The translations under genes were made by a program, and so were the position numbers. DNA of 64,000 bases, from the NCBI RefSeq assembly GCF_018866305.1, contig NZ_CP076456.1:620001-684000 (forward strand), in the 5' to 3' direction. Of the stretch, positions 21,228 through 56,985 are shown in pieces. The notes below the pieces were generated by a model, which made no database searches, was not told the origin of the DNA, and was given only the letters and a program-made list of their open reading frames with translations. The first letter of the stretch is position 1. Every line of letters begins with the position of its first letter. Source of the stretch: Arthrobacter sunyaminii (GTDB taxonomy: Bacteria > Actinomycetota > Actinomycetes > Actinomycetales > Micrococcaceae).

Positions 21228-21441
21228 AGGTGTAGTACGTCAATTCATTTCGGGGATCTTCATCGGGTCCAGGAGCTTTTGCGGGCCCGGCACTGCGTTA
21301 ACGATATCTGCTTTCGGGTACGGGTTTACCGCCTTGCCGGGCAGGCGAGGGGCCGGCAAGGAATAACTGCCGACCCGCAAAGGTTGGATCAGGCAGGATA
21401 AAAAATAGATGCATATGCATGAAGTAGCGGAGGTTGCCGAG

Positions 21442-22110
21442 ATGGCAGATCGCAGAATAGTAGTTGTAACGGCAGGATTGGGCGTTCCCTCGTCCAGCCG
21501 GATGCTTGCCGACCAGTTGGGGCAGGCCGCCCGCCGGGCACTCGAGACCTCCGGCGGCTCCGCCTCGGTGAGCACCTTCGAACTCCGCGAGTACGCCGTG
21601 GATATCGCCAACAACATGGTGACCGGTTATGCGCCGCCGAAGTTGGAGACGCTCATCAATGAAGTAGTGGCCGCAGACGCGCTGGTGGCCGTAACCCCCG
21701 TTTTCACTGCCTCCATGAGCGGCCTCTTCAAATCGTTCTTCGACGTTATCGACAACACCGCCCTGGATGGAAAGCCCGTGATCCTGGGAGCGACCGGCGG
21801 CAGTTCGCGGCATTCCCTGGTGCTGGACTTCGCAATGCGGCCCATGTTCAGCTATCTGCGGGCCAAAGCCACGCCGACGGCGGTCTATGCGGCACCGGAG
21901 GACTGGGGCTCAGCCGGCGACGCCGGATCCGCTCCCTCCGGCACAAGCGCATTGGATGCCCGGGTGCGCCGTGCGGCCTCCGAGCTCGCTGCACTCTTGG
22001 GAACCCAGGGAGCCCAAGGACCGCAGGGAACCCAGGAGCCTGCAAAGCGTCCGGATCCCATGGTTTCGCTGCCTTTTGAACAGTTGCTGGCCCAAACCCG
22101 CCGGGGATAG
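21442..22110 (+). CDS. NAD(P)H-dependent FMN reductase (flavodoxin fold, CE1759-like)
   Basis: A 222-residue flavodoxin-like oxidoreductase. VVVTAGLGVPSSSRMLADQL is the FMN-phosphate loop at the N-terminus. VAVTPVFTASMSGLFKSFFD is the second FMN-binding region, with ILGATGGSSRH the third. Such proteins supply reduced FMN to two-component monooxygenases. The ATG chosen has GGAGG 8 bases upstream; an in-frame ATG 33 bases earlier lacks one. The C-terminus has a short GAQGPQGTQ collagen-like stretch that is probably unstructured. Divergent from MFS copy 2. Confidence 0.85.
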   Translation: MADRRIVVVTAGLGVPSSSRMLADQLGQAARRALETSGGSASVSTFELREYAVDIANNMVTGYAPPKLETLINEVVAADALVAVTPVFTASMSGLFKSFFDVIDNTALDGKPVILGATGGSSRHSLVLDFAMRPMFSYLRAKATPTAVYAAPEDWGSAGDAGSAPSGTSALDARVRRAASELAALLGTQGAQGPQGTQEPAKRPDPMVSLPFEQLLAQTRRG

Positions 22111-36549: not shown

Positions 36550-38355
36550 TCAGTCCGTGCGGCTGTCGTTGACGGTCAGCGCCGCAGTGATCAGCGCTAG
36601 GTGGGAGAGTCCCTGCGGGAAGTTGCCTAGGAAGGCGGAGTCCTCCTCAGCGATCATTTCGGTGTAGAGCCCGACGTCGTTCGCCAGCGGCACCAGCTGG
36701 TCCATGAGCTCCACCGCTTCATCCCGCCGGCCAACGTGGGTCAGTGCGGACACCATCCAGAACGCACACGCCACGAAGGTGCCTTCCTCCTTTTCCGCGC
36801 CGCTGTACCGGTAGAGCAGAGGACCGCGGCCCAGCTCCTCCCGCAGCGCGTCGAGGGTGGAACTCATGCGCTCGCTGCGGTCGAAGCCGCTGATGGCATG
36901 GAGCAGGATGGAGGCGTCCAGCTTGTCGGATCCCGGATACCAGACGTAGCTGCCGCGTTCCTCGGACCAGCAGTTCTCCCGCACCCACGCTTCGATCCGA
37001 TCTTTCTCGGCCCGCCACCGGTCTGAGGGGCCGGGAATCTGCCCCAGATCGGCCAGATGCGAGGCGCAGCTGAGGGCATGCCAGCAGCCCAGCTTGGACG
37101 TGGTGTAGTGCTGCTCGTCGTACAGTTCCCACATCCCGGCATCGCGTTTTTGCCAGGTGTCGCAGGCCAGATCCGCCAGATCAGCCAGCAGCCGCCCGGT
37201 ACCGGTGTCCAGGACGTGGCCGGCATCCACGTAGAGTTGAACGATATTGAACAGATCCCCAAAGACTCCCATTTGGAGCTGGGATGCCGCATTGTTGCCC
37301 CGAACCACCGGTCCAATGCCCCGCCAGCCGGGCAGATCCAGCACCTCGGCGCCGTCCGCCGGTTCTCCGTTCAACGCGGTGAACACCTGCAGATCCTTGC
37401 CCTGGCTGCGGATGCTCTTCAGCATCCCGGCGACGGCGGCATGGACCTCCTCACGCAGGCCGAACCGGGTCAGGGCGTTAAGCGTGTAAGCGGTGTCGCG
37501 GACCCACGCGTACCGGTAGTCCCAGTTCTTGCCGCCGGCCAGGCTCTCGGGCAGCGACGTTGTAGCGGCGGCCGCCACTGCGCCCGAGGGACTGTGGATC
37601 AGCAGTTTCAGCGCCAGTGCGCTGCGCTGCACTGCCTCGGACCACGGTCCGTCGTAGGTGAACTCCTTCATCCAGCTCTGCCAGTTGGCGATGGTACGGT
37701 CGACGCCGGCATCCACGGTCTGCGGGTCCGGCAGCGCCAGCGGCTCGTCATGGGTGGAAACAACGGCCACCAAGTGCCGGGAGCCGGGGGAGGTGGAGAA
37801 GGAGCCGGAAATGCTGCGGTCAGAGACCTGCTGCCCGCCGTGCTGAAAGCCGCGGACCCCGATGGTGGTTTGCTGGGCGTGGAGCACCGGCCCGTGGGCG
37901 CTGTCCTCCACCCAGGGCGAGGCGGTGCCGAAACAATTGCCCGGTGCCACGGACCAGCGCATCCGCACGGTGCCTGCCAGCCCCTCGATCCGGCGTGCCA
38001 GCTCGCCCCAGGGCAACCGTCCGGCCACGCCGGTATTGAGGGAATCCGTGACGCGGACGCTTCCGGAAGCAGTGGTGAAGGTGGTCGCCAGGACATTCGT
38101 TCCGTCCACGTAGGCCCGTTCCACCCTGAAGTCCTCCTCCGGACGCAACTCGATCCGGCCGCCGTCGTCCGCATCCAGCAACGCTGCAAAGGAAGGAACC
38201 GAGTCAAGGTCCGGGGTGGGATACCAGTCCACTGCTCCGTCCCGGGCAACCAGCGCAACGGTGCGTCCGTCCCCAATAGCGGCGTAAGAACGCAGTTCCG
38301 CATAACCGTTGATGCGTTCGTTCGGATGGGGTTGCGTGGAGCTTTCGGCAGTCAT
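36550..38355 (-). CDS. Glycoside hydrolase family 15 protein (glucoamylase/trehalase-like)
   Basis: A 601-residue GH15 enzyme with an (alpha/alpha)6 barrel. WDYRYAWVRDTAYTLNALTR at about residues 275-294 is the family substrate-binding signature. The N-terminal beta-sandwich (RSYAAIGDGRTVALVARDGA onward) matches the cytoplasmic actinobacterial group. Some members of this group are trehalases and others act on malto-oligosaccharides. No signal peptide is present, so an intracellular role is likely. GGAAGG precedes the ATG. Divergent from the F420-enzyme gene. Confidence 0.9.
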   Translation of the reverse strand: MTAESSTQPHPNERINGYAELRSYAAIGDGRTVALVARDGAVDWYPTPDLDSVPSFAALLDADDGGRIELRPEEDFRVERAYVDGTNVLATTFTTASGSVRVTDSLNTGVAGRLPWGELARRIEGLAGTVRMRWSVAPGNCFGTASPWVEDSAHGPVLHAQQTTIGVRGFQHGGQQVSDRSISGSFSTSPGSRHLVAVVSTHDEPLALPDPQTVDAGVDRTIANWQSWMKEFTYDGPWSEAVQRSALALKLLIHSPSGAVAAAATTSLPESLAGGKNWDYRYAWVRDTAYTLNALTRFGLREEVHAAVAGMLKSIRSQGKDLQVFTALNGEPADGAEVLDLPGWRGIGPVVRGNNAASQLQMGVFGDLFNIVQLYVDAGHVLDTGTGRLLADLADLACDTWQKRDAGMWELYDEQHYTTSKLGCWHALSCASHLADLGQIPGPSDRWRAEKDRIEAWVRENCWSEERGSYVWYPGSDKLDASILLHAISGFDRSERMSSTLDALREELGRGPLLYRYSGAEKEEGTFVACAFWMVSALTHVGRRDEAVELMDQLVPLANDVGLYTEMIAEEDSAFLGNFPQGLSHLALITAALTVNDSRTD

Positions 38356-38540: not shown

Positions 38541-39545
38541 ATGACTTCTTCTCTCACTATTGGTTACGCGGCAATGCTGGAACAGTTCCATCCCACTGAA
38601 GCGGTGGCGTTGGCGGAATACGCGGAGAGCAAAGGTTTTTCCGGCGTTATGGCGGCCGATCATTTCCAGCCGTGGGTTCCCGCGCAGGGCCAGTCCGCCT
38701 TTGTCTGGAATGTTCTCTCCGCCCTGGGCGAGCGCACCAAGGGCGATATTGGGCCGGGCGTCACGGCGCCGACCTTCCGCTGGCATCCGGCGATGGTGGC
38801 GCAGGCTTCCGCCACCCTTGCGGCCATGTATCCCGGCAGGCACTGGCTGGGACTGGGGTCCGGTGAGGCGCTGAACGAGCACATTACCGCCCAGTACTGG
38901 CCGGAAGCACCGGAGCGCATCAACCGGATGTTCGAAGCCATCGAAATCATCACCAAGCTCTTTACCAACTCCCTGGCCGGCAAGGACGTGCGCCACAAGG
39001 GCGAGTTCTACAAAATGGAGTCCACCCGCCTGTGGACCATGCCGGAGACGGCCCCGGAAATCCTGGTGGCCACCGCAGGACCGGTCACGGCAAAGCGTGC
39101 CGGCCGGCACGCCGACGGACTGATCACCGTGGGAGCTCCGCTGGAGAAAATCGGGATGCTCTTTGAGAAGTTCGACGCCGGAGCCCGCGAGGCAGGCAAG
39201 AACCCGGACACGATGCCCAAGGTCCTGCAGCTGCACATGAGCTGGGCCGAGACGGACGAGGAAGCCCTCACCAACGCCATGGTGGAATGGCCCAACGGCG
39301 GCATGAAGTTCCCCAAGGGGGACATTCGGTCTCCGTTCGAGCTGGAGCAGATGGCCAAGCTCGTCCGGCCCGAAGATTTCGAGGGCCGGATGGTCATTTC
39401 CAGCGATCCCGATGTCCACCGCGCCTACATCCAGAAATTCGTGGACCTGGGCTTTGACCGCATCTATCTGCATAACGTGGGACGGAACCAGCGCCAGTGG
39501 ATCGATGTGTTCGGCGCCAGCGTCCTGCCGGCACTGCAACGCTGA
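38541..39545 (+). CDS. LLM-class F420-dependent oxidoreductase, glucose-6-phosphate dehydrogenase-like
   Basis: A 334-residue TIM-barrel enzyme of the luciferase-like group. It closely resembles mycobacterial FGD: AADHFQPW gives His41 and Trp45, and GSGEALNE gives Glu109, the same numbers as the catalytic His40/Trp44/Glu109 of FGD1 within one residue. Two of three remembered phosphate-binding residues are kept: Lys in FPKGDIRSPFELE and Arg in EGRMVISSDPD. The one equivalent to Lys198 falls in ITVGAPLEK and appears to be Pro, so the substrate may differ from glucose-6-phosphate. AAGGA precedes the ATG. cofE begins 3 bases after the stop, forming a two-gene operon. Confidence 0.88.
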   Translation: MTSSLTIGYAAMLEQFHPTEAVALAEYAESKGFSGVMAADHFQPWVPAQGQSAFVWNVLSALGERTKGDIGPGVTAPTFRWHPAMVAQASATLAAMYPGRHWLGLGSGEALNEHITAQYWPEAPERINRMFEAIEIITKLFTNSLAGKDVRHKGEFYKMESTRLWTMPETAPEILVATAGPVTAKRAGRHADGLITVGAPLEKIGMLFEKFDAGAREAGKNPDTMPKVLQLHMSWAETDEEALTNAMVEWPNGGMKFPKGDIRSPFELEQMAKLVRPEDFEGRMVISSDPDVHRAYIQKFVDLGFDRIYLHNVGRNQRQWIDVFGASVLPALQR

Positions 39546-39548
39546 CCG

Positions 39549-40355
39549 ATGCGCACCATCACGGTCTTTGTCCTCCCCGGTATCAGCGAAATCACGCCCG
39601 GCGCCGATCTGGTGTCTGTCATCCTGGACGCCGCAGCATCAACTCCGGACGCGGCACTGCGGCCGGGAGACATCCTGGTGGTCACCTCCAAGATTGTGTC
39701 CAAGGCCGAAGGCCGGCAAGTAGCGGCGGAGGACCGGGAACAGTGCATCACCGAGGAAACCGTTCGGGTGGTGGCCAGCAAGGTTCATTCCGGAGGCGTG
39801 ACCCGGATCGTGGAGAACAAGCTGGGGATCGTGGCCGCCGCAGCGGGTGTGGACAACAGCAACACCCCTGCGGGGACGGTCCTGCTTCTTCCCGTGGATC
39901 CGGACGCCTCGGCCCGGGCACTGTGCGCCGGCCTGCGCCGGAAGCTGGGGTTCGACGTCGGGGTTCTCATCACCGACACCCTGGGGCGCGCGTGGCGTGA
40001 CGGGCAGACCGACGCCGCCATCGGAGCCGCCGGCGTGGACGTTCTGCTGGACCTGCGGGGAACCTCCGATGCCTTTGGCCAGGAGATGAAAGCCACCCTG
40101 ACGGCGGTTGCGGACGAGATCGCCGGCGCCGCGGACCTGGTCAAAGGCAAAACCAGCCAATGCCCGGTGGCAGTGCTCAGAGGCCTGCCGGATTTGGTGC
40201 ATCCTGAAGGATATTTCGGCGGCGACCGGGGAGCCCGGGCACTGGTGCGTCCTCCCGCACATGACCTGTTTCGGCTCGGCAGTGCGGAGGCATGGCGCGA
40301 GGGCTACGCAGCGGCCTGCCGGGACGCCGGCCTGCCGGAGCCGCTCTGGGACTAG
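39549..40355 (+). CDS. cofE: Coenzyme F420-0:L-glutamate ligase
   Basis: A 268-residue CofE/FbiB N-domain-type ligase, which adds gamma-linked glutamates to F420-0 using GTP. Family hallmarks are [37 protein letters not shown] and [24 protein letters not shown]. It lacks the C-terminal nitroreductase-like domain of mycobacterial FbiB. No cofC, cofD, cofG or cofH lies in the window. It is linked to an F420 enzyme upstream, and its stop overlaps the stop of the converging F420-0 transporter ATPase gene. This supports a salvage role rather than de novo synthesis (inference). Confidence 0.93.
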
Positions 40356-41200
40356 GCGGAGGCCTCGAGCCGAGGGGCCGCCGCGTTGGCCGGCGAGGGC
40401 AGGGACAGGGCAATCAGCGGACGCCCCGTGGCGGGGTGGACCAGCACATGCGCCTGGACTCCGTACACCTCGCGGATCAGTTCCGCGGTCAGCACCGTCC
40501 GCGGATCACCGGCCGCCACCACGGTGCCGCCGGACAGGACAATCACATGGTCGCAGTGGGCTGCGGCGTGGGTGAGGTCATGAAGGGCGGCGACGACGGC
40601 GATGCCGCTTCCGGCCAGCTCCCGCAGCAGCGCCAGGGTGGTCAGCTGGGCGTGCGGATCGAGGTGGTTGGTGGGCTCGTCCAGGAGCAGCAGCTGCGGG
40701 CGCTGGGCCAGGGCCCGGGCCAGCTGGACCCGCTGCCGCTGTCCGCCGGAGAGTTCGTTGAACAACCGGTCCGCAAGCTCCGGCACCCCGGCGGTCCGCA
40801 GTGCGGCGGTAACTTCGGCGTCGTCGTCACTGGTGCCGAAACCCAGCAGGGACCGGTGCGGCATGGTGCCCAGGGACACGACGTCGCGCACGGTCAGCGG
40901 TGCATCGGTGCCGGATTCCTGCTCGGCCAGTGCCGCAATCCGGGCACGATCCCGGCGCGGACGGCGCAGCAGATCCCTGCCCTCCCACAGCACGGTGCCG
41001 GTGCGCACGGGCACCACGCCGGCCAGCGCCCGCAGCAGCGTGGACTTTCCGGCGCCGTTGGGGCCCACCAGTGCCGAGAGGGCGCCTGCCGGAACCGTGC
41101 AGTCCACCCCGTCCACCACCAGCTTGCCGCCAAGGCGAATCTCAAGGTTCGCGGCATCAAGGGTCTTCACGGGCCGGCCGGCTCCGGGTGCGCCGCTCAT
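40352..41200 (-). CDS. ABC transporter ATP-binding protein, putative F420-0 (FecCD-type) importer
   Basis: A 282-residue ATPase of the iron-siderophore/cobalamin importer type. Walker A is GPNGAGKST, the signature LSGGQRQR and Walker [13 protein letters not shown], followed by [15 protein letters not shown]. The ATG overlaps the permease stop (ATGA), so it is translationally coupled. An open frame continues about 830 bases upstream of this ATG, but it reads out of frame through the permease gene and is not coding. The three-gene cassette beside cofE and F420 enzymes matches the arrangement proposed in actinobacteria for F420-0 uptake. Confidence 0.88.
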
Positions 41201-42279
41201 GCTCCGCCCTTTCGCCGGGCGAGCACATAGGCGAACACCGGGGCCCCGATGACGGCGGTGACCACTCCCACCGGCAGCTCCCGCGGCTCGAAGGCGGCCC
41301 GGGCCGCAGTGTCGGCCCAGACCAGGAACACGGCACCCAGCAGGGCGGACAGCGGCAGCAGGCTGCGGTGGCCGGGGCCCGTGACCAGGCGGACCACATG
41401 TGGAAACACCAGTCCGATAAAACCAATCGAACCGCTGACGGACACCATGGCTCCGGTCAGCAGCGCAGTGGCGGCCAGCATGGACCACCGAACGGCCGGA
41501 ACATTGATGCCCAGGGCGGAGGCGGCGTCGTCCCCGAAGGCGAACCCGTCCAGGAGGCGGGCTGTGCCCAGCAGCGGAAGACCCACCACCAGGAGGGCCC
41601 CGGCGGCAATGCCCGCGCTGGACCACTGCGTGCCGGCCAGGGAACCGAGCAGCCAGCCCAAAATGTTGCGGTAGGAATCTCCGGTGGCGGTCCAGAAGAT
41701 CACCAGGCTGGTGAGGGCGCTGCCCAGGGAGGACACCGCCACTCCGGCCAGGACCGTGCGCGACGGGGTGAGCCCGCCGGCCAGCCGGGCCAGGAGCAGG
41801 GTTGCAGCCAGTGCGGCCAGGGCCCCAATGAACGCTGCCAGCGGCAGCAGCAGCTGAGCACCCAGCAGCACCACGCACACGGCCCCCAGCGATGCACCGG
41901 AGGACAGGCCCAGCAGATACGGGTCGGCAAGGGCGTTGCGGGTCAGCGCCTGCATGACCGCACCGCTGACGGCCAGCCCGGCGCCCACCGCCGCGGCGGT
42001 GAGCACCCGGGGCAGCCGCAGTTCCCAAATGATCCCGTCCTGCAGGGCGGACAGCGGGCTGGCGCCGATGCCCAGACGGGCGAGGATGGAACGGAAGGCG
42101 TCCGGCACGCTGATGTCCGCCGGTCCCACGGTCGAGGCGGCGGCGACGGACAGCACCAACGCCGCAGCCAGCACCGCCGTTGCGGTGCCCGTGGGGAAGC
42201 GGCGCCGGGGTGCCGGCAATGCCTCACCGAGCCCGGGCAGCGAACCGGCGTCTTCCCGGTGCAGGCGGAGGGCCGTCAC
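41197..42279 (-). CDS. ABC transporter permease, FecCD family, putative F420-0 importer
   Basis: A 360-residue inner-membrane permease with about nine to ten hydrophobic helices. LRLPRVLTAAAVGAGLAVSG and LADPYLLGLSSGASLG near the N-terminus and SIGFIGLVFPHVVRLVTGPG later are FecCD/BtuC signatures. The GTG start overlaps the stop of the substrate-binding protein gene (GTGA), and its stop overlaps the ATPase start. Siderophore or cobalamin transport is the alternative reading if genomic context is ignored. Confidence 0.88.
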   Translation of the reverse strand: MTALRLHREDAGSLPGLGEALPAPRRRFPTGTATAVLAAALVLSVAAASTVGPADISVPDAFRSILARLGIGASPLSALQDGIIWELRLPRVLTAAAVGAGLAVSGAVMQALTRNALADPYLLGLSSGASLGAVCVVLLGAQLLLPLAAFIGALAALAATLLLARLAGGLTPSRTVLAGVAVSSLGSALTSLVIFWTATGDSYRNILGWLLGSLAGTQWSSAGIAAGALLVVGLPLLGTARLLDGFAFGDDAASALGINVPAVRWSMLAATALLTGAMVSVSGSIGFIGLVFPHVVRLVTGPGHRSLLPLSALLGAVFLVWADTAARAAFEPRELPVGVVTAVIGAPVFAYVLARRKGGA

Positions 42280-43274
42280 GGCAGCCTTGTGAGCTGATCG
42301 GCGAGGTCTGCCACGGCGTCGGCATTGCGCACCCCGGCCTCGCCCGCAGCGAAGGGAAGGACCAGATACCGCTCATTGATCACCGCGTCCATGCCGGCGG
42401 TGGCAGGGTTGGCGGCCAGCAGCTCCTTCTTTGACTCCGCGGTGTTCCGGTCCGCGTCCACCAGCACAATGACGTCCGGATTGGCATCCACCACGGTCTC
42501 CCAGCTCAGGGACGCCCAGGATTCCTGGACATCCGCGGCGATGTTCTCCAGTCCCAGCTGCTCCATCATCATTTGCGGAGCGCCCAGTCCTGCCCCCGCG
42601 TAGGGAGTGTCCCGGCCGGAGGAGAACCAGAAGGCCGTCATGCCGTCTCCCGCCGGCGATACGCCGGCCAGGATCTCCCGCTGTTCAGCCACCAGGGCAG
42701 CCGCGGCCTCGGGGGCGCCCAACAGGGCGCCGGCTTCCGTGATGTCCTCGAAAACGGATTCAAAGGTCAGCTTGCCGGGAAGTCCCTCTTCCCGGCAGGC
42801 CGCCGGAGAGACATAGGTATTAATCCCGAGCGAGGCCAGGACACCGCGCTCGCCGGCTGCATCGGCACTCAGATTGGACTCCCATCCGGCGTAAATGAAG
42901 TCCGGTTCACGCTCCAGCACCACTTCCTGCGAGGGCGCGGCATCGGACAGCGACGGCAGGGAATCCGCCTCGTCCGCCAGGGATTCCGGCACCGGTCCGT
43001 CCAGGAACGCCGTACCCACTACTTTGCTGCCCAGCCCCAGGGCCAGGACTGTTTCCAGCGAGGTGGATTTGATGGCCACGATGCGTTCGGGGGCGGCAGT
43101 GAGTGTCACCTCCGTGCCGCAGTTGGAAACGGAGACCGGGTACGACGACGACGGCGGTGCTGACGGTCCGGCGTCCGGCTGGGCGGCCGGCGCTTCAGCC
43201 GTGGAACAGCCAACTGTGCCGGCAAGGGCTGCGGCCAGAAGCAGGGAAAGGGCAGACACGCGGGTTCGGTTCAT
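42276..43274 (-). CDS. ABC transporter substrate-binding lipoprotein, putative F420-0 importer
   Basis: A 332-residue lipoprotein: signal peptide with lipobox LAGTVGC (Cys23), then a class III periplasmic-binding-protein fold like BtuF/FepB. Recognisable stretches are ERIVAIKSTSLETVLALGLG near the start and WETVVDANPDVIVLVDAD in the second lobe. AGAGG lies about 5 bases before the ATG. First gene of the transporter operon. No cobalamin riboswitch or iron box is evident upstream, which weakens the vitamin B12 or siderophore alternatives. F420-0 binding is inferred from context and family, not from ligand residues. Confidence 0.85.
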   Translation of the reverse strand: MNRTRVSALSLLLAAALAGTVGCSTAEAPAAQPDAGPSAPPSSSYPVSVSNCGTEVTLTAAPERIVAIKSTSLETVLALGLGSKVVGTAFLDGPVPESLADEADSLPSLSDAAPSQEVVLEREPDFIYAGWESNLSADAAGERGVLASLGINTYVSPAACREEGLPGKLTFESVFEDITEAGALLGAPEAAAALVAEQREILAGVSPAGDGMTAFWFSSGRDTPYAGAGLGAPQMMMEQLGLENIAADVQESWASLSWETVVDANPDVIVLVDADRNTAESKKELLAANPATAGMDAVINERYLVLPFAAGEAGVRNADAVADLADQLTRLP

Positions 43275-43483
43275 AGGTCCTCTTGGTGCGGCGTAGTGCG
43301 GCGGGAAATCGGAGGGGATCTATGGCCCAAGTCCAGACCAGAGTTACCGGCCATACGCGGCCGGTGATCTTCGATGAACGCTAGCACTCCTTTGTTTGCT
43401 GAATTCTTTGTTGCGGCCCGTTACGCACCACGGATAACCGCATCACGGCCCGCACCTCTTTGAGAAAAGCAGCACCAAAACCC

Positions 43484-43512
43484 TTGCGGGTTCCGCAATA
43501 AAGGCGAAGGAT
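43484..43512 (+). promoter_or_regulatory. Candidate promoter of the pyrimidine-degradation operon
   Basis: TTGCGG, 17-base spacer, AAGGAT. The -35 is fair and the -10 weak (3 of 6). The palindrome TGGTGCACCA would lie just downstream of the predicted start site, a usual place for a repressor operator. Confidence 0.35.
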
Positions 43513-43531
43513 GAACCCACCCTGCGACAAA

Positions 43532-43541
43532 TGGTGCACCA
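43532..43541. promoter_or_regulatory. Palindromic TGGTGCACCA, candidate GntR/FCD-type operator
   Basis: A perfect 10-bp palindrome with the TGGT-NN-ACCA core known from FadR/PdhR/LldR-type operators. It lies about 110 bases before the beta-ureidopropionase start. A near copy (TGGTGCACCT) lies upstream of the GntR gene at 59074. Confidence 0.45.
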
Positions 43542-43649
43542 GCTTTTACGCCGCGGAAATGTTAAGGAAACGTTCGGCACAAAGACTGATAAAGGCCCTG
43601 AACCGGCCGATCGACACTGCGGCACAACACGCCGCTACTAGGAGGCACA

Positions 43650-44498
43650 ATGACAATCATCCGCACAGCCCTGACCCAGACAACGTGGACCGGGGATGAA
43701 GAGTCCATGGTTGCCAAGCACGAGGAGTTTGTCCGCAAGGCTGCTGCCGAGGGCGCTCAGATCATTTGCTTCCAGGAGCTTTTCCACGGCCCGTACTTCG
43801 GAATTGTGCAGGACAACAAGTATTACGACTATGCGCAGAAGGTTCCTGGTCCCCTCACCGAGCGGTTCTCTAAACTCGCGGCCGAGCACAACATGGTGAT
43901 CATCCTGCCGATCTATGAAGAGGAGCAGCCCGGAGTCCTCTATAACACTGCGGCGGTGATCGACGCCGACGGAACATATTTGGGCAAATACCGCAAAAAC
44001 CACATTCCCCATGTGGAGAAATTCTGGGAGAAGTTCTACTTCCGGCCGGGAAACATGGGGTGGCCGGTTTTCGACACTGCAGTCGGAACCGTGGGAGTCA
44101 CCATTTGTTATGACCGGCACTTCCCCGAAGGCTGGCGCGTACTTGGCCTGAACGGCGCCCAAATTGTCTTCAACCCCAACGCTTCCAAACCGGGACTCTC
44201 CAACCGGCTTTGGGAACTCGAGCAGCCCACCGCTGCGGCAGCCAACGGGTATTACGTGGTGGTGCCCAACCGGGTGGGCAGCGAGACCAATGAGTTCGGC
44301 GACGAAGCAGTCGATTTTTACGGAACGTCCTATGTTGCCGATCCGCAGGGCAACTACGTGGGGGAGCTGGGGGACCGCCACAACGAAGAACTGTTGATCC
44401 GTGATCTGGACATGGACCTGGTTCGCACGGCGCGCAACAACTGGCAGTTCTACCGGGACCGCCGGCCGGATGCGTACACGCCCATCACCAACCCGTAA
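43650..44498 (+). CDS. Beta-ureidopropionase / N-carbamoyl amino acid amidohydrolase (nitrilase superfamily)
   Basis: A 282-residue nitrilase-family amidase; in reductive pyrimidine breakdown it would hydrolyse N-carbamoyl-beta-alanine to beta-alanine, CO2 and ammonia. The catalytic triad is visible: Glu in CFQELFHGPYF, Lys in YRKNHIPH and Cys in VTICYDRHFPEG. It opens an operon with dihydropyrimidinase, an LLM oxidoreductase and an ABC transporter. A GGAGG site lies 5 bases before the ATG. N-carbamoylputrescine amidase is a close relative, but the neighbour hydantoinase favours the pyrimidine role. Confidence 0.9.
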   Translation: MTIIRTALTQTTWTGDEESMVAKHEEFVRKAAAEGAQIICFQELFHGPYFGIVQDNKYYDYAQKVPGPLTERFSKLAAEHNMVIILPIYEEEQPGVLYNTAAVIDADGTYLGKYRKNHIPHVEKFWEKFYFRPGNMGWPVFDTAVGTVGVTICYDRHFPEGWRVLGLNGAQIVFNPNASKPGLSNRLWELEQPTAAAANGYYVVVPNRVGSETNEFGDEAVDFYGTSYVADPQGNYVGELGDRHNEELLIRDLDMDLVRTARNNWQFYRDRRPDAYTPITNP

Positions 44499-44547
44499 CA
44501 GCCGGTTCATCGGACGAAAGCACCAGAAGGCAGACAAGGGAGTCGTT

Positions 44548-45969
44548 TTGAGTACAACACTGATCACCGGAGGAACGGTTGTTACCTCCACCGGCCGCAG
44601 CGAAGCGGACGTTCTCATTGACGGGGAGAAGATCGCGGCGGTACTCGCACCCGGTTCCACCCTGCTGGGGCATGACCTGGCCGGTTCCGTAGACACGGTC
44701 CTGGATGCCCGCGGCAAATATGTGATTCCCGGCGGCATCGATGCGCACACCCACATGCAGATGCCCTTCGGCGGCACCGAAGCCTCCGACACCTTTGAAA
44801 CCGGCACCCGCGCCGCGGCCTGGGGAGGTACGACGACGATCGTGGACTTCGCGATCCAGCGGTACGGCGAGCGGGTGATGGACGGTTTGGGCGCGTGGCA
44901 TGAGAAGGCTGCGGGGGAATGTGCCGTCGACTATGGCTTTCACCAGATTGTGGGGGACGTCAATGATGATTCCCTCAAGGCGATGGCGGGGCTCATCGAT
45001 GAGGGGGTGTCCAGCTACAAGCTGTTCATGGCCTACCCGGGGGTTTTCTACAGCGACGACGCGCAGATCTACAAGGCTATGCGGGTGGGAGCCGAAACCG
45101 GACTGATGACCATGATGCATGCCGAGAACGGTCCGGCCATTGATGCCATGGTCAGTGAACTGCTGGCCCAGGGCAAAACCGATCCCTACTACCACGGGGT
45201 GGCGCGGGCCTGGCAGATGGAGGAGGAGGCCACCCACCGGGCCATCATGCTGGCCAACCTCACCGGTGCGCCCCTGTATGTGGTCCATGTGTCCGCGAAG
45301 CAGGCGGTGGAGCAGCTGGCCGCAGCCCGGGACAACGGGCAGAACGTCTTCGGCGAAACCTGTCCGCAGTACCTGTACCTGAGCCTGGAAGACCAGCTCG
45401 GCGCTGACGGCTTCGAGGGTGCGAAGTGGGTTTGTTCCACGCCCCTGCGTTCCAAGCACGAGCACCATCAGGACCACATGTGGCAGTCGCTGCGCACCAA
45501 TGACATCCAGATGGTGGCCACGGACCACTGCCCGTTCTGCATGAAGGGGCAAAAGGACCTGGGCCAGGGGGACTTCTCCAAGATCCCCAACGGCATCGGG
45601 TCGGTGGAGCACCGTATGGACCTGATGTACCAGGGCGTGGTGGACGGCAAGATCTCGCTCGAGCGCTGGGTGGAAATCACCAGTACGACGCCGGCGCGCA
45701 TGTTTGGCATGTACGGGGCCAAGGGCGTGATCGCCCCGGGTGCCGATGCCGACGTCGTTATCTACGATCCCAACGGCCACACCTCGATCGGATTGGAGAA
45801 AACCCATCATATGAACATGGATTACTCCGCTTGGGAGGGCTACGAGATCAACGGGCACGTGGACACGGTGCTGTCCCGGGGACGGATCCTCATCAATGAC
45901 AACGAGTACCTCGGGTCCAAGGGCCACGGCCGGTACGTCCGCCGGGGACCCAGCCAGTACCTGATCTAA
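44548..45969 (+). CDS. hydA: Dihydropyrimidinase (D-hydantoinase)
   Basis: A 473-residue amidohydrolase opening the ring of dihydrouracil/dihydrothymine or hydantoins. The metal motif GGIDAHTHMQMPFGG is near residues 60-75. SSYKLFMAYPG holds the carboxylated Lys, YVVHVSAK and GETCPQYLYL further metal/substrate residues, and MVATDHCPF the last metal Asp-containing strand. The start is TTG with AAGGGAG upstream; the longer open frame before it overlaps the previous gene and lacks family features. The stop region is duplicated (see repeat). Confidence 0.93.
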   Translation: MSTTLITGGTVVTSTGRSEADVLIDGEKIAAVLAPGSTLLGHDLAGSVDTVLDARGKYVIPGGIDAHTHMQMPFGGTEASDTFETGTRAAAWGGTTTIVDFAIQRYGERVMDGLGAWHEKAAGECAVDYGFHQIVGDVNDDSLKAMAGLIDEGVSSYKLFMAYPGVFYSDDAQIYKAMRVGAETGLMTMMHAENGPAIDAMVSELLAQGKTDPYYHGVARAWQMEEEATHRAIMLANLTGAPLYVVHVSAKQAVEQLAAARDNGQNVFGETCPQYLYLSLEDQLGADGFEGAKWVCSTPLRSKHEHHQDHMWQSLRTNDIQMVATDHCPFCMKGQKDLGQGDFSKIPNGIGSVEHRMDLMYQGVVDGKISLERWVEITSTTPARMFGMYGAKGVIAPGADADVVIYDPNGHTSIGLEKTHHMNMDYSAWEGYEINGHVDTVLSRGRILINDNEYLGSKGHGRYVRRGPSQYLI

Positions 45970-46001
45970 GCCAGTACCTGATCCAAGTCAGTACCTACAA
46001 G
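45953..46001 (+). repeat. 17-base tandem repeat spanning the dihydropyrimidinase stop codon
   Basis: GCCAGTACCTGATCTAA is followed directly by GCCAGTACCTGATCCAA and a truncated third copy GTCAGTACCTACAAG. The first copy encodes the last residues (QYLI) and stop; the next copies are untranslated and run into the AAGGAG site of the LLM gene. It looks like replication-slippage duplication of the gene end. Confidence 0.85.
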
Positions 46002-46013
46002 GAGCGGAACAGC

Positions 46014-47030
46014 ATGGAATTTGGCGCAGTACTGCAATGCAATCCGCCCGCAGCCCGAACGGTGGCGCTCGCGAAGCGGGCCGAGGAATTCGGGTTCGAC
46101 TACGTGTGGACGTTTGACTCTCACATCCTGTGGCAGGAACCCTATGTGATTTACAGCCAGATCCTGGCCGAAACACAGAACATCAAGGTGGGGCCCATGG
46201 TCACCAACCCGGCCACCCGGGACTGGACCGTCACGGCTTCCACCTATGCCACGCTGAACTCGATGTACGGCAACCGTACGGTGTGCGGCATTGGCCGCGG
46301 GGACTCCGCGCTGCGGGTCAGCGGGGGATCGCCCACCACCCTGAAGACGCTGCGCGAATCGATCCATGTGATCCGCGAGCTGGCGAACTCGCGGGCGGTG
46401 GAATACAACGGGCGGACCATCCAGTTTCCGTGGAGCACCGGTTCGGAACTGGAAATGTGGGTGGCTGCCTACGGGCCGCTGGCATTGAAACTCACCGGCG
46501 AAGTGGGAGACGGGTTCATTCTGCAGCTGGCCGATCTGGACATAGCGGAATGGATGATCGCCACCGTGCGGAGCGCCGCGGCAGCGGCGGGACGCGATCC
46601 AATGGCGATCAAATTCTGCGTGGCCGCGCCCATGTACATAGGGGATGACTGGGAGCACATGCGGGACCAGTGCCGTTGGTTTGGCGGGATGGTGGGCAAC
46701 CATGTGGCGGACATCGTGGCCAAGTACGGGGCCGACGCCGCCGTGCCGCAGGCGCTGACGGACTACATCGCCGGTCGGGAAGGCTACGACTACAACGAGC
46801 ACGGACGGGCGGGTAACACCCACACCGCCTTTGTACCGGACGAGATCGTGGACCGGTTTTGCCTCATGGGCACCGTGGAGCAGCACATCGAAAAGCTCGA
46901 AAAGCTGAAGGCGCTGGGCGTGACCCAGTTCGCCGGCTACCTGCAGCATGACAACAAGGAGGAAACCCTGCGGGTCTACGGCGAGAGCATCATTCCGGCA
47001 CTGCGTGAGCACGTGAGCGCAACGGCATGA
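46014..47030 (+). CDS. LLM-class flavin/F420-dependent oxidoreductase of the pyrimidine operon
   Basis: A 338-residue luciferase-like TIM-barrel oxidoreductase resembling the F420-class family that accompanies hydantoinase genes (TIGR03842-like). EFGFDYVWTFDSHILWQEPY, VGPMVTNPATRDWTVTAS and GNRTVCGIGRGDSALRVSGG are the cofactor-site stretches. AAGGAG lies 9 bases before the ATG. No dihydropyrimidine dehydrogenase (PydA) subunit accompanies the operon, so this enzyme could perform the first redox step on the pyrimidine ring (inference). FMN rather than F420 remains possible. Confidence 0.87.
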   Translation: MEFGAVLQCNPPAARTVALAKRAEEFGFDYVWTFDSHILWQEPYVIYSQILAETQNIKVGPMVTNPATRDWTVTASTYATLNSMYGNRTVCGIGRGDSALRVSGGSPTTLKTLRESIHVIRELANSRAVEYNGRTIQFPWSTGSELEMWVAAYGPLALKLTGEVGDGFILQLADLDIAEWMIATVRSAAAAAGRDPMAIKFCVAAPMYIGDDWEHMRDQCRWFGGMVGNHVADIVAKYGADAAVPQALTDYIAGREGYDYNEHGRAGNTHTAFVPDEIVDRFCLMGTVEQHIEKLEKLKALGVTQFAGYLQHDNKEETLRVYGESIIPALREHVSATA

Positions 47031-47037
47031 GCAGGGC

Positions 47038-47915
47038 ATGAAAACGACGGCGGGGCCGGCGGCCCGGATTGGATGGGCCGCCGGCGGAGTCCTTGCCCCG
47101 GTGCTGCTGTGGGAAGGGTACAAACTTGCCGGTCCGGTCAACGGACTGAATGTCGCGGGGATACCGCTGCTGCCGCGGAACTCCGACCTCGCCATGCCGC
47201 ACATCTGGACCATGCTCGGGAGGCTGGCCGAGCCGGCCACCTCGGCAGCAGGGGCCTCGCCGCTGTGGATGGCCGTGCTGCAGGCTGCCGCCTTCACCCT
47301 CGGGATCGCGGCACTGGGCTGGCTGATCGGGGTCACGGTGGGCGTGGGCCTGGCCATGCTGATGCAGCGCTTCCGGTCCGCGGGCTCCGCACTGCTGCCC
47401 TGGATCATCCTCAGCCAGACCGTCCCGCTGATCGCCATTGCGCCGCTGGTGCGGCGGTGGGGTTCCCAGCTGGAGATCGGGTCCTTTAGCTGGGAGAACT
47501 GGATGTCCGTGGCGGTCATCGCGTCCTATCTGGCCTTCTTTCCGGTGGCGATCGGTGCCCTGCGCGGATTCTCCGCTCCGGAGAACAATCATGTGGACCT
47601 GATGCACACCTACTCCGTGGGCTGGTGGCGCAGCTTCCTGTTCCTGCGGCTTCCGGCCAGCGTTCCCTTCCTGCTGCCGGCCCTGCGCCTGGGCGCCGCC
47701 AACGCGGTCATCGGGGCCGTGGTGGCTGAGGTGTCCATCGGCCTGAAGGGCGGGATCGGCCGGATGATCGTGGAGTACGCCGCCGCGGCCGGCGGTGACC
47801 CGGGCAAACCCTGGGCTCCCATTTTCGGGGCCGTCCTGCTGGGACTGGCAGCTGTCGCTGCCACCACGGTGTTGGGACTGTTCCTGCACCGCTACCGCAG
47901 AGGAGAACAAGCATC

Positions 47916-47919
<4 letters not shown>
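47038..47919 (+). CDS. ABC transporter permease (pyrimidine operon, NitT/TauT/ThiX-like)
   Basis: A 293-residue permease with about six helices and the cytoplasmic coupling loop (DLMHTYSVGWWRSFLFLRLPAS) typical of NitT/TauT-type permeases. It follows the LLM gene by 7 bases, and its stop overlaps the ATPase start (ATGA). It is one of two different permeases in the transporter, which also has one ATPase and one binding protein. Likely cargo is a pyrimidine or dihydropyrimidine, by context. Confidence 0.88.
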
Positions 47920-48763
<844 letters not shown>

Positions 48764-48767
<4 letters not shown>

Positions 48768-49591
48768 CGGTGCTGAAGCCGGCGGCGCTGAAGACGGCAC
48801 CGGCTGCTGCCGCCGCCACCTCGCCCGCACTGTTGGGCCGGGCGGTCGACGGCGGCCGGAAAGCGGCACTGCCGGTGCTGCTGGGAGTAGCCGCGGTGCT
48901 GATCTGGCAGGGAGTCGTGAGCCTGTTCGCGGTCCCGGCGTTTGTCCTGCCGGGTCCCTTCGCCATCGCGGCGGCCTTCTTCGGGAACGCAGCAAACATC
49001 GCCTCCGCCTCGCTCGTGACGGGAAGCAATGCCCTGGCCGGGCTGGTGATCGGCGGCCTGATTGGAGTGCTGGCCGCCGTCGTGGCCGCCTTCCTGCCAA
49101 TTTTTGACCGCCTCGCCGGCCCCACCGTCACCGCGCTGTCCGTGGTGCCCATCGTGGCGGTGGCTCCTGTGCTGTACACAATGTTCGGCGCCGGCGAAGA
49201 AGCGCCGCGGCAGATCGTGGCCGGAATAGCGGTCTTTGTGCCGGTCTACGTAAATTCGCTGCGCGGGTTTCGGCAGGTGCGCCCGGTGCACCGGGACTTG
49301 ATGCGCTCCTATGCCGCGGGCCGCTGGCAGGCAACGCGTGCGGTGACCCTGCCCAGTGCAGTGCCCTACATGTTTACCGGGCTCCGGATCGCGTCCTCGC
49401 TGGCGGTGATTTCCGCGCTGATTGCCGAGTACTTCGGCGGTCCGGTGGGCGGACTGGGCAAATCCATCACGTCGGCCGCTGCCGGCAGCAACTACACACT
49501 GGCGTGGGCCTACGTGCTGGGCGCCGTCGTCGTCGGCCTTCTTTTCTTCTGCGCAACCGCAGTGCTGGAGAAATACAGTTCCCGGCACTGA
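48764..49591 (+). CDS. ABC transporter permease (second, pyrimidine operon)
   Basis: A 275-residue permease, about six helices, with the loop DLMRSYAAGRWQATRAVTLPSA before a conserved ALIAEYFGGPVGGLG. The GTG start overlaps the ATPase stop (GTGA). It differs clearly from the first permease, so the channel is probably a heterodimer. Followed after 82 bases by the substrate-binding protein gene. Confidence 0.9.
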
Positions 49592-49673
49592 CTCTGCCGG
49601 TCCTCATCTGACCATCCCTTCCGTCCGAAGGGGAGGCCACCTCGACCCATTCACACTCACTGGAGGCAATGAC

Positions 49674-50819
49674 ATGGCAAGTGGAAAACGCATCCGCACG
49701 GCCGCGGCGGCCGGAACCGCCGCAATTCTGTTCCTGGCAGGCTGCGCCTCGGACAGCGGGGCAGAAGCTGACGGCGAATCTGCCGAAGGGCTGACGCCGG
49801 TGACGCTGCAGCTGCAGTGGTTCTCGCAGGCCCAGTTCGCCGGCTATTACGCGGCTCTGGACCAGGGCTTCTTTGAAGACGAAGGCCTGGACGTGGAGAT
49901 TGTTGAAGGCGGCGCGGACATCGTGCCGCAGGACGTGCTTGCCTCGGGAGACGTGGACTACGCGATTTCCTGGGTGCCCAAAGTCCTGGGGTCGATCGAG
50001 CAGGGCGCCAACATCACCAACGTGGCGCAGATCTTCGAACGCAGCGCCACCCTGCAGGTGGCCATGGCTGATTCCGGCATCGACGGACCGGAGGACCTGG
50101 CCGGAAAGAAGGTGGGGTCCTGGGGTTACGGCAATGAATGGGAGCTCTTCGCCGGAATGCAGGACGCAGGCGTGGAACCCGGGGACATTGAGCTGATCCA
50201 GCAGGCGTTCGACATGAACGGGTTCCTGTCCGGGGACATCGACGCAGCGCAGGCCATGACGTACAACGAGTACGCCCAGGTCCTGGAAACCGTCAATCCC
50301 GACACGGGGGAGCTGTACCAGCCCGAGGACCTAACCGTCATCGACTGGAATGAAGAGGGCTCGGCCATGCTGCAGGACGCCATCTGGGCTGACGCGGACC
50401 GGTTGGCCGATGACTCCGAATACCAGGAGACCACCACGGCGTTCATCAAAGCCGCCATCAAGGGCTGGATCTATGCCAAGGACAATCCGGAGGACGCGGC
50501 ACGGATCGTGACTGAATCCGGATCCACCCTGGGCCAGAGCCACCAGCTGTGGATGACCAACGAGACCAACAAGCTGATCTTCCCCTCCACCAACGGTGTC
50601 GGAATGATCGATGAGAGCGCGTGGCAGAAGACGGTGGACATCGCCATGGGCACGCAGAACGAAACCGGAGCCACCATCCTCACCACCGAGCCGCCGGAAA
50701 CCGCCTACACCAACGAGTACGTTCAGAAGGCACTGGCTGAATTGGAAGAGGAGGGCGTGGACACCAAGGCTGCGGATTACCAGCCCGTGGAGGTGACCCT
50801 GGCCGAGGGCGGAAACTAA
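49674..50819 (+). CDS. ABC transporter substrate-binding lipoprotein (NMT1/THI5-like, pyrimidine operon)
   Basis: A 381-residue lipoprotein: signal peptide with lipobox LFLAGC (Cys22). The NMT1/THI5-type fold is evident from LQLQWFSQAQFAGYYAALDQ, IVEGGADIVPQDVL and KKVGSWGYGNEWELF. Such proteins bind hydroxymethylpyrimidine, riboflavin-like compounds or pyrimidines. In this operon a pyrimidine ligand is the best guess. The ATG is preceded by GGAGG 8 bases upstream; an open frame further upstream only overlaps the permease gene. Last gene of the operon. Confidence 0.9.
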   Translation: MASGKRIRTAAAAGTAAILFLAGCASDSGAEADGESAEGLTPVTLQLQWFSQAQFAGYYAALDQGFFEDEGLDVEIVEGGADIVPQDVLASGDVDYAISWVPKVLGSIEQGANITNVAQIFERSATLQVAMADSGIDGPEDLAGKKVGSWGYGNEWELFAGMQDAGVEPGDIELIQQAFDMNGFLSGDIDAAQAMTYNEYAQVLETVNPDTGELYQPEDLTVIDWNEEGSAMLQDAIWADADRLADDSEYQETTTAFIKAAIKGWIYAKDNPEDAARIVTESGSTLGQSHQLWMTNETNKLIFPSTNGVGMIDESAWQKTVDIAMGTQNETGATILTTEPPETAYTNEYVQKALAELEEEGVDTKAADYQPVEVTLAEGGN

Positions 50820-51376: not shown

Positions 51377-56571
<5,195 letters not shown>

Positions 56572-56866
56572 ACCACAGTCTGGGCAGGAAACGACTTCAA
56601 ACGTTCCCGCCAAAGAAGGATTGTGTTGATCATGCTGCTTGCGTCCACTATGTGGTTCCCGGATAACAAACCCGTGTGTGGTTTGTCACCGTGGAACCGG
56701 TATTCGATCACCTGTGATGGGTGGTGGGATGCCGTAGAATTAAGGAAGTGTTCATTCTTACGCGTGGATACTTTTTCATGACAGGCACTGTTGTTTGAGT
56801 GTTTGGTTGTGACCCATTGTTTTCCCCTCCACCAGGAGTATTTTGGCTGGTGGTGTGGGTGGTAGG
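56572..56866 (+). other. 23S-5S spacer
   Basis: About 295 bases holding the 3' half of the 23S processing stem (about 56638-56658). GGTTTGTCACCGTGGAACC further on may fold locally. No tRNA or coding sequence is seen. Confidence 0.75.
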
Positions 56867-56985
56867 GTTACGGCGGTCATAGCGTGGGGGAAACGCCCGG
56901 TCCCATTCCGAACCCGGAAGCTAAGACCCACTGCGCCGATGGTACTGCATCCGGGAGGGTGTGGGAGAGTAGGTCACCGCCGGAC
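56867..56985 (+). rRNA. rrf: 5S ribosomal RNA
   Basis: Begins GTTACGGCGGTCATAGCG and contains CCCGGTCCCATTCCGAACCC and GGGAGAGTAGGTCACCGCC; the ends pair with each other as in Micrococcus 5S. About 119 bases; ends approximate. Confidence 0.95.

Follow-up and report, generated by a model that had tools for sequence, protein, structure and literature searches.

In a 64,000-nt stretch of the Arthrobacter sunyaminii genome (contig NZ_CP076456.1, positions 620,001 to 684,000; hereafter the window), we identified an operon at window positions 43650–50819 that very probably serves reductive pyrimidine degradation, with a luciferase-like monooxygenase (LLM) of family TIGR03842 as its first enzyme. 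This LLM would use reduced coenzyme F420 (F420H2) and would be a non-homologous replacement of the classical dihydropyrimidine dehydrogenase, PydA/PreTA. Beyond this operon, we consider it likely that reductive pyrimidine breakdown in many Actinomycetota and some marine Alphaproteobacteria usually starts with an F420H2-dependent uracil/thymine reductase, and that the scavenging or making of F420 is largely dedicated to this one pathway in some lineages. The role of F420H2-dependent first-step reductase fits the LLM best because it co-occurs with dihydropyrimidinase, because LLM genomes lack PreA over the model cut-off, because it is linked to F420 salvage in Actinomycetota and forms a joint module with F420 biosynthesis in Leisingera, and because preA occupies the corresponding role in two relatives of the Leisingera clusters.

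A pyrimidine operon without dihydropyrimidine dehydrogenase

All genes between 43650 and 50819 lie on the same strand and are separated by gaps of at most ∼82 nt or overlap by 4 nt (two of the starts are inferred), forming a single operon in the order beta-ureidopropionase-like hydrolase, dihydropyrimidinase, TIGR03842 LLM oxidoreductase and NMT1-type ATP-binding cassette (ABC) importer (Table 1). The nearest solved chains of the hydrolase were CG3027-PA (2vhh), which we take to be the fly beta-ureidopropionase, an N-carbamoylputrescine amidohydrolase (5h8i) and a beta-ureidopropionase (8pt4); its score against the AguB model TIGR03381 (256 bits) was below the cut-off of 410. At family level, it matches the beta-ureidopropionase of the reductive Pyd pathway. 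Solved relatives of the dihydropyrimidinase include both D-hydantoinases and dihydropyrimidinases, and the importer's binding protein was 36–37% identical to its counterparts in three dihydropyrimidinase clusters, of which two contain preA. Aminotransferase and semialdehyde dehydrogenase genes are absent from the operon itself.

The LLM protein holds PF00296 only and lacks the PF01180 flavin mononucleotide (FMN) domain of PydA/PreA. The PreA model NF006183 had no match in the one-contig genome at E 1e-30. A PF01180 search of the genome returned the quinone-dependent dihydroorotate dehydrogenase and one weak match to another flavoprotein, and no further good candidate. The original prediction, made from the DNA sequence alone, had placed a pyrimidine operon with dihydropyrimidinase, beta-ureidopropionase and an ABC importer at this position, which we could confirm with the families as described. 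It had further claimed that dihydropyrimidine dehydrogenase is missing, and had named in advance a classical dihydropyrimidine dehydrogenase encoded at another site as a finding that would speak against it; the searches above bear out the claim and did not find such an enzyme.

Co-occurrence and gene neighbourhoods in Actinomycetota

Among 246 sampled Actinomycetota genomes, the LLM was present in 53, dihydropyrimidinase over cut-off in 75, CofH over cut-off in 124 and PreA over cut-off in only 2, neither of which carried the LLM (0 of 53). TIGR02033 dihydropyrimidinase was found in 50 of the 53 LLM genomes and in 25 of the 193 others (Fisher p 1.5e-29, to be taken, like the other p-values here, as a guide only, since kinship among genomes makes it too small). 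CofH over cut-off was similarly distributed (43/53 versus 81/193; p 3.6e-7). PreA matches at E 1e-30, including those below cut-off, occurred in 145 genomes of the sample, some with the LLM (e.g. G042, G058, G205, G213, G234, G237); the below-cut-off matches in LLM genomes were taken for dihydroorotate dehydrogenases, a presumption not confirmed one by one.

We compiled three sets of LLM neighbourhoods, which are not independent, as some strains occur in both the order and the named set. The phylum set holds 40 loci, covering 40 of the 53 LLM genomes (the other 13 are the window's own and 12 more, many with the gene at contig ends). The order set, drawn from 149 genomes of the same order, holds 37 loci from 36 of 39 LLM genomes; the window's own genome and G225 (L066) were examined separately, and G273 was left out. 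The named set comprises the best 80 of at least 590 confirmed stretches, whose organism names are all Actinomycetota. A dihydropyrimidinase lay near the LLM in 33/40 phylum, 36/37 order and 80/80 named loci, and six of the seven genomes whose phylum loci had none in the stretch carry one elsewhere. For PydC or an M20 carbamoylase, the corresponding counts were 37/40, 35/37 and 79/80; for a class III aminotransferase 28/40, 21/37 and 59/80; for a dehydrogenase of the methylmalonate-semialdehyde dehydrogenase (MMSDH) type 12/40, 9/37 and 28/80; and for an NCS1 permease or NMT1-type importer 32/40, 28/37 and 65/80. One actinobacterial MMSDH-type dehydrogenase that we checked was over the cut-off of TIGR01722. 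A weak PreA-like stretch lay at the edge of one locus (L052), 8.9 kb away, in a genome without a PreA match at E 1e-30. In a neighbour survey covering 87 of 133 frames (locus L174 was among those left out) and 25 of 50 families, aldehyde dehydrogenases were the only other oxidoreductase family with more than one member. The neighbourhoods thus correspond to the reductive pathway without PydA, the LLM being the oxidoreductase that they all share, and since the arrangement recurs in many genera it is not due to chance.

Transcriptional regulators of PucR type (in clusters like L058) or MocR type also recur near the LLM. The MocR-type regulators, which combine GntR and aminotransferase parts, stand divergent to the operon, as in L129 (5534–6931), L142 (5521–6918) and L162 (5731–7182).

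Plasmid-borne clusters

A tblastn search against plasmids returned 15 records, including ten from Leisingera and one from Paracoccus alcaliphilus, at 43–46% identity; in a Streptomyces plasmid match, a dihydropyrimidinase directly precedes the LLM. On two Leisingera plasmids, the LLM closes a cofG-cofH-cofD-cofC-cofE-npdG-LLM operon, and divergent to it stand pntAB and genes for an omega-aminotransferase, an M20 hydrolase, hydA and an NCS1 symporter. The aminotransferase scored over the cut-off of the omega-aminotransferase AptA model, and the regulator encoded after the LLM was 47% identical to a protein annotated as RutR, the uracil sensor. Judged by record names, close relatives of the Leisingera LLM occur in Pseudovibrio, Cohaesibacter, Hoeflea, Shimia and others. 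In the clusters of Qingshengfaniella and Roseinatronobacter, the LLM is replaced by preA, preceded by an NAD(P)-dependent oxidoreductase gene that we took as preT; PydB (72–74%) and M20 (69–74% identical) match those of Leisingera, and a related TetR regulator is present. An Azospirillum cluster likewise contains preA, its PydB being 58% identical. On the Paracoccus alcaliphilus plasmid (L199), genes for formate dehydrogenase and for an ABC importer of another kind come after the operon of F420 biosynthesis genes and LLM.

These clusters bear on the possibility that the gene set is pyrimidine-related while the substrate of the LLM is another intermediate or another cyclic ureide such as a hydantoin, not uracil or thymine. 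TIGR02033 cannot separate dihydropyrimidinases from hydantoinases, hydantoin clusters also hold NCS1 permeases and M20 carbamoylases, and one hydA plasmid cluster, which encodes a racemase and an N-carbamoyl-D-amino-acid hydrolase, looked hydantoin-like. Such a substrate is nevertheless unlikely: the AptA-type aminotransferase of Leisingera and the actinobacterial MMSDH fit beta-alanine and beta-aminoisobutyrate, a RutR-like regulator adjoins the Leisingera LLM, preA fills the same role in two relatives, and no racemase appeared among the 25 of 50 families listed in the neighbour survey.

Sequence relationships of the LLM

The TIGR03842 family profile found 12 solved sequences at E 1e-10, of which the first eight were F420 enzymes, led by six of Mer, the F420-dependent methylenetetrahydromethanopterin reductase; the LLM protein is thus closer to F420 reductases than to FMN-dependent LLM enzymes. 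In a model of Mer, an Asp is held against the pyrimidine ring of the substrate; Glu6 of Mer is catalytic (PMC11094777). All 61 aligned TIGR03842 members share the Asp matching this residue, as well as the valine at Mer's non-prolyl cis-peptide bond followed by T-N-P, whereas Glu6 is replaced throughout (V in 34, C in 17, T in 10). In a small tree, the family grouped with Mer and one Rv2161c-like LLM (support 0.997), apart from the window's second LLM, which resembles F420-dependent glucose-6-phosphate dehydrogenase (FGD); other deep nodes were weak (0.15 to 0.78).

F420-using LLM enzymes have been divided into a reductase group containing Mer and a dehydrogenase group containing FGD (Mascotti et al., PMC6279831). 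Under this scheme both kinds would be encoded in the window, which would suffice to cycle F420 between its oxidised and reduced forms. Since FGD-type LLM enzymes reduce F420, the TIGR03842 protein might likewise oxidise a pathway intermediate and make F420H2, leaving uracil to be reduced by an enzyme we did not recognise. We regard this as highly improbable, given that the family is placed with Mer, a member of that scheme's reductase group, and not with FGD, that in Leisingera the reducing power could come from NpdG and PntAB, and that aldehyde dehydrogenases are the sole other recurring oxidoreductases among the 25 of 50 neighbour families listed.

Link to F420

A putative F420-0 salvage locus beside the operon encodes CofE, the FGD-like LLM and the three components of an F420-0 ABC importer, whose transport function is putative and whose ATPase scored below its cut-off (Table 1). 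In the same genome, the CofH model TIGR03551 had no match at E 0.001 and the CofD model TIGR01819 had none over cut-off (best 21 bits versus 257). Synthesis of F420 by the known route is therefore hardly possible, and the source organism probably scavenges the cofactor, taking it in as F420-0. The FGD-like protein was below the cut-offs of both the FGD equivalog TIGR03554 (201 bits; cut-off 420) and TIGR03885, a family named FMN-dependent (298 bits; cut-off 398.7), and we infer its substrate and cofactor from its relatives. The genome contains nine luciferase-family genes, two of which exceed the cut-off of an F420 family, both in this locus; two of the nine frames (L212, L213) are oddly long or short and had no family match at E 1e-30.

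In the order sample of 149 genomes, the LLM was found in 39, the F420-0 binding protein over cut-off in 36, CofH over cut-off in 24, and CofE in 100 at E 1e-20 and in 81 over cut-off. CofE accompanied the LLM in 38 of 39 genomes at E 1e-20, compared with 62 of 110 others (p 2.9e-7), and in 35/39 versus 46/110 over cut-off. Nineteen genomes combined LLM and F420-0 binding protein, none of them with CofH. In 16 of the 19, LLM and importer were on one contig, 3.7–32.7 kb apart (15 within 14.4 kb), and in a seventeenth genome (G384, L091) CofE and an FGD-like gene lay just upstream of the pyrimidine operon, with the importer on another contig. Among the named stretches, 30 of 80 contained the F420-0 binding protein. 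The original prediction of an F420 salvage locus beside the operon was borne out by the importer families, CofE and the FGD-like LLM, and its suggestion that the first ring reduction could depend on F420H2 gains support from the several comparative lines presented here.

The LLM could instead be a pyrimidine reductase that uses reduced FMN, with the neighbouring F420 locus being incidental. Many LLM enzymes use FMN (PMC6279831), and in 12 of the order's 39 LLM genomes neither CofH nor the importer reaches its cut-off, which also counts against F420 dependence. Eleven of these 12 have CofE, however, and in nine of the eleven CofD adjoins it. We consider the use of FMN quite unlikely in view of the near-universal presence of CofE in LLM genomes of the order, the repeated proximity of LLM and F420-0 importer, the position of the LLM as closing gene of the F420 biosynthesis operons examined in Leisingera and Paracoccus, and its similarity to Mer.

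The nine LLM genomes with CofD beside CofE (L214–L216, L219–L224) have no CofH match at E 1e-90, which suggests FO import or an unrecognised FO synthase.

Evidence weighing against an F420H2-dependent pyrimidine reductase

Several further observations weigh against the proposed function, as does the kinship that affects the p-values. Of the 75 dihydropyrimidinase genomes in the phylum sample, 24 had neither LLM nor PreA over cut-off, so that dihydropyrimidinase alone does not require the LLM; these genomes may contain hydantoinases or use another first step. Of eight dihydropyrimidinase regions examined on further plasmids, three have preA (those of Qingshengfaniella, Roseinatronobacter and Azospirillum) and five have neither preA nor LLM. 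Conversely, the F420-LLM operon of Paracoccus alcaliphilus has no dihydropyrimidinase annotated within ∼12 kb, and 17 of the 36 order genomes with the F420-0 importer lack the LLM, which means that other enzymes, too, draw on F420 salvage. Because dihydropyrimidinases and hydantoinases form one family, the substrate could be another cyclic ureide. The Mer chain that we aligned has Asn where the paper gives Gln178, and Mer numbering was therefore relied on only at the agreeing positions 6, 61, 62, 96 and 233. The putative F420/FMN enzyme reported as necessary for uracil reduction in mureidomycin, described below, gave no activity in vitro (PMC10714638). Overall, we infer the role of the LLM from comparative evidence.

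Proposed pathway and comparison with known systems

In the pathway that we propose, the NMT1-type ABC importer would bring in uracil or thymine, while the neighbouring importer would take up F420-0, to which CofE would add glutamates, and the FGD-like enzyme would, by its family, reduce F420 to F420H2. The LLM would then transfer a hydride from F420H2 (C5) to the pyrimidine (C6), and protonation of the pyrimidine's C5 would yield the dihydropyrimidine. PydB would open the ring and PydC would release beta-alanine or beta-aminoisobutyrate, CO2 and ammonia, activities that we assign from their families. The pathway would be finished by a class III aminotransferase together with a CoA-acylating methylmalonate-semialdehyde dehydrogenase, which are encoded in many relatives but absent from this operon. 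For Leisingera, the gene content suggests a flow of reducing equivalents from NADH to NADPH (PntAB), on to F420H2 (NpdG) and finally to the pyrimidine.

The operon shares the PydB and PydC families and an importer with the Pyd pathway (PydA/PreTA-PydB-PydC), and many relatives also share its aminotransferase and semialdehyde dehydrogenase. It differs in the first enzyme, here a luciferase-like protein in which neither an Fe-S nor an NAD(P)H domain was found and whose proposed reductant is F420H2; PydA is of the dihydroorotate dehydrogenase type and unrelated to the LLM. Step-one variants described so far rely on PydA homologues, with NADPH, NADH or ferredoxin as the reductant (PMC7332683). One of them, the ferredoxin-dependent PydAc of Clostridium chromiireducens, resembles the present case as a variant with a different reductant but is itself homologous to PydA and has FMN and Fe-S domains (PMC7332683), whereas here the whole enzyme would be replaced. 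With Mer, the closest solved relative, the LLM shares the cis-peptide valine and the substrate-ring Asp, but it differs at Glu6 and in its genomic setting.

Similar by description is a putative F420-dependent luciferase-family yanthine reductase, which a 2025 paper predicts to replace the PydA-like/YgfK reductase in a purine pathway of Chloroflexota (PMC12507026): it too is a predicted replacement by an F420-using LLM, in purine rather than pyrimidine degradation. Also alike by description is SSGG-03002/NpsU, a putative F420/FMN oxidoreductase genetically required for C5-C6 reduction of uracil in the uridyl peptide antibiotic mureidomycin (PMC10714638); it differs in serving antibiotic biosynthesis.

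The pyrimidine oxygenase RutA is an LLM-family enzyme that acts on uracil, opening the ring oxidatively so that dihydropyrimidinase becomes unnecessary. RutA was not among the 25 of 27 families listed for the LLM protein. We found no paper on an F420-dependent first step of reductive pyrimidine degradation among the open-access papers searched, and the available text of the F420 review PMC8498797 contained neither 'uracil' nor 'dihydrouracil' (0 occurrences each).

If the proposed function is correct, it would assign a role to a large F420 enzyme family that has none: TIGR03842 is classed by NCBI as a hypothetical equivalog, and at least 8000 proteins match it at E 1e-30, possibly including neighbouring families. 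It would also explain pyrimidine degradation in Actinomycetota with few or no PreA genes, and give F420-0 import, as well as F420 synthesis in some Alphaproteobacteria, a concrete physiological rationale. The exchange of a complex iron-sulfur flavoenzyme for a small deazaflavin enzyme would be a clean non-homologous replacement.

Features of the window

Table 1. The pyrimidine operon and the adjacent F420 locus, in window coordinates
Feature	Position	Strand	Basis
LLM of F420 glucose-6-phosphate-dehydrogenase family, proposed F420 reducer	38574..39545	+	TIGR03557, 267 bits (cut-off 210)
CofE, coenzyme F420-0:L-glutamate ligase	39549..40355	+	TIGR01916, 217.7 bits (cut-off 180.65)
ATPase of putative F420-0 ABC importer	40352..41170	-	TIGR03873, 336.6 bits (below cut-off 372.4)
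Permease of putative F420-0 ABC importer	41197..42279	-	TIGR03869, 470 bits (cut-off 437)
Binding protein of putative F420-0 ABC importer	42276..43274	-	TIGR03868, 420 bits (cut-off 392)
Divergent intergenic region between F420 salvage locus and pyrimidine operon	43275..43649	.	gene coordinates
PydC-like N-carbamoyl-beta-alanine amidohydrolase (beta-ureidopropionase)	43650..44498	+	CN_hydrolase PF00795, 228 bits
PydB dihydropyrimidinase (D-hydantoinase family)	~44545..45969 (start codon inferred)	+	TIGR02033, 550 bits (cut-off 393)
LLM oxidoreductase, proposed F420H2-dependent uracil/thymine reductase	46014..47030	+	TIGR03842, 592 bits (cut-off 295)
ABC importer permease	47038..47919	+	PF00528
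ABC importer ATPase	47916..48767	+	PF00005
ABC importer permease	48764..49591	+	PF00528
NMT1/THI5-like binding protein, proposed pyrimidine binder	~49674..50819 (start inferred)	+	PF09084

A sigma-70 consensus scan of the divergent intergenic region yielded no site. Directly downstream of the pyrimidine operon lies a complete rRNA operon (16S, 23S, 5S; 51377–56985), and a trehalase-like protein that matched the TreH1 and TreH2 models below their cut-offs is encoded beside the F420 locus (36550–38355). The window also encodes a CE1759-family FMN reductase (21409–22110), and a CE1758-family luciferase-like protein is found elsewhere in the genome (L205).

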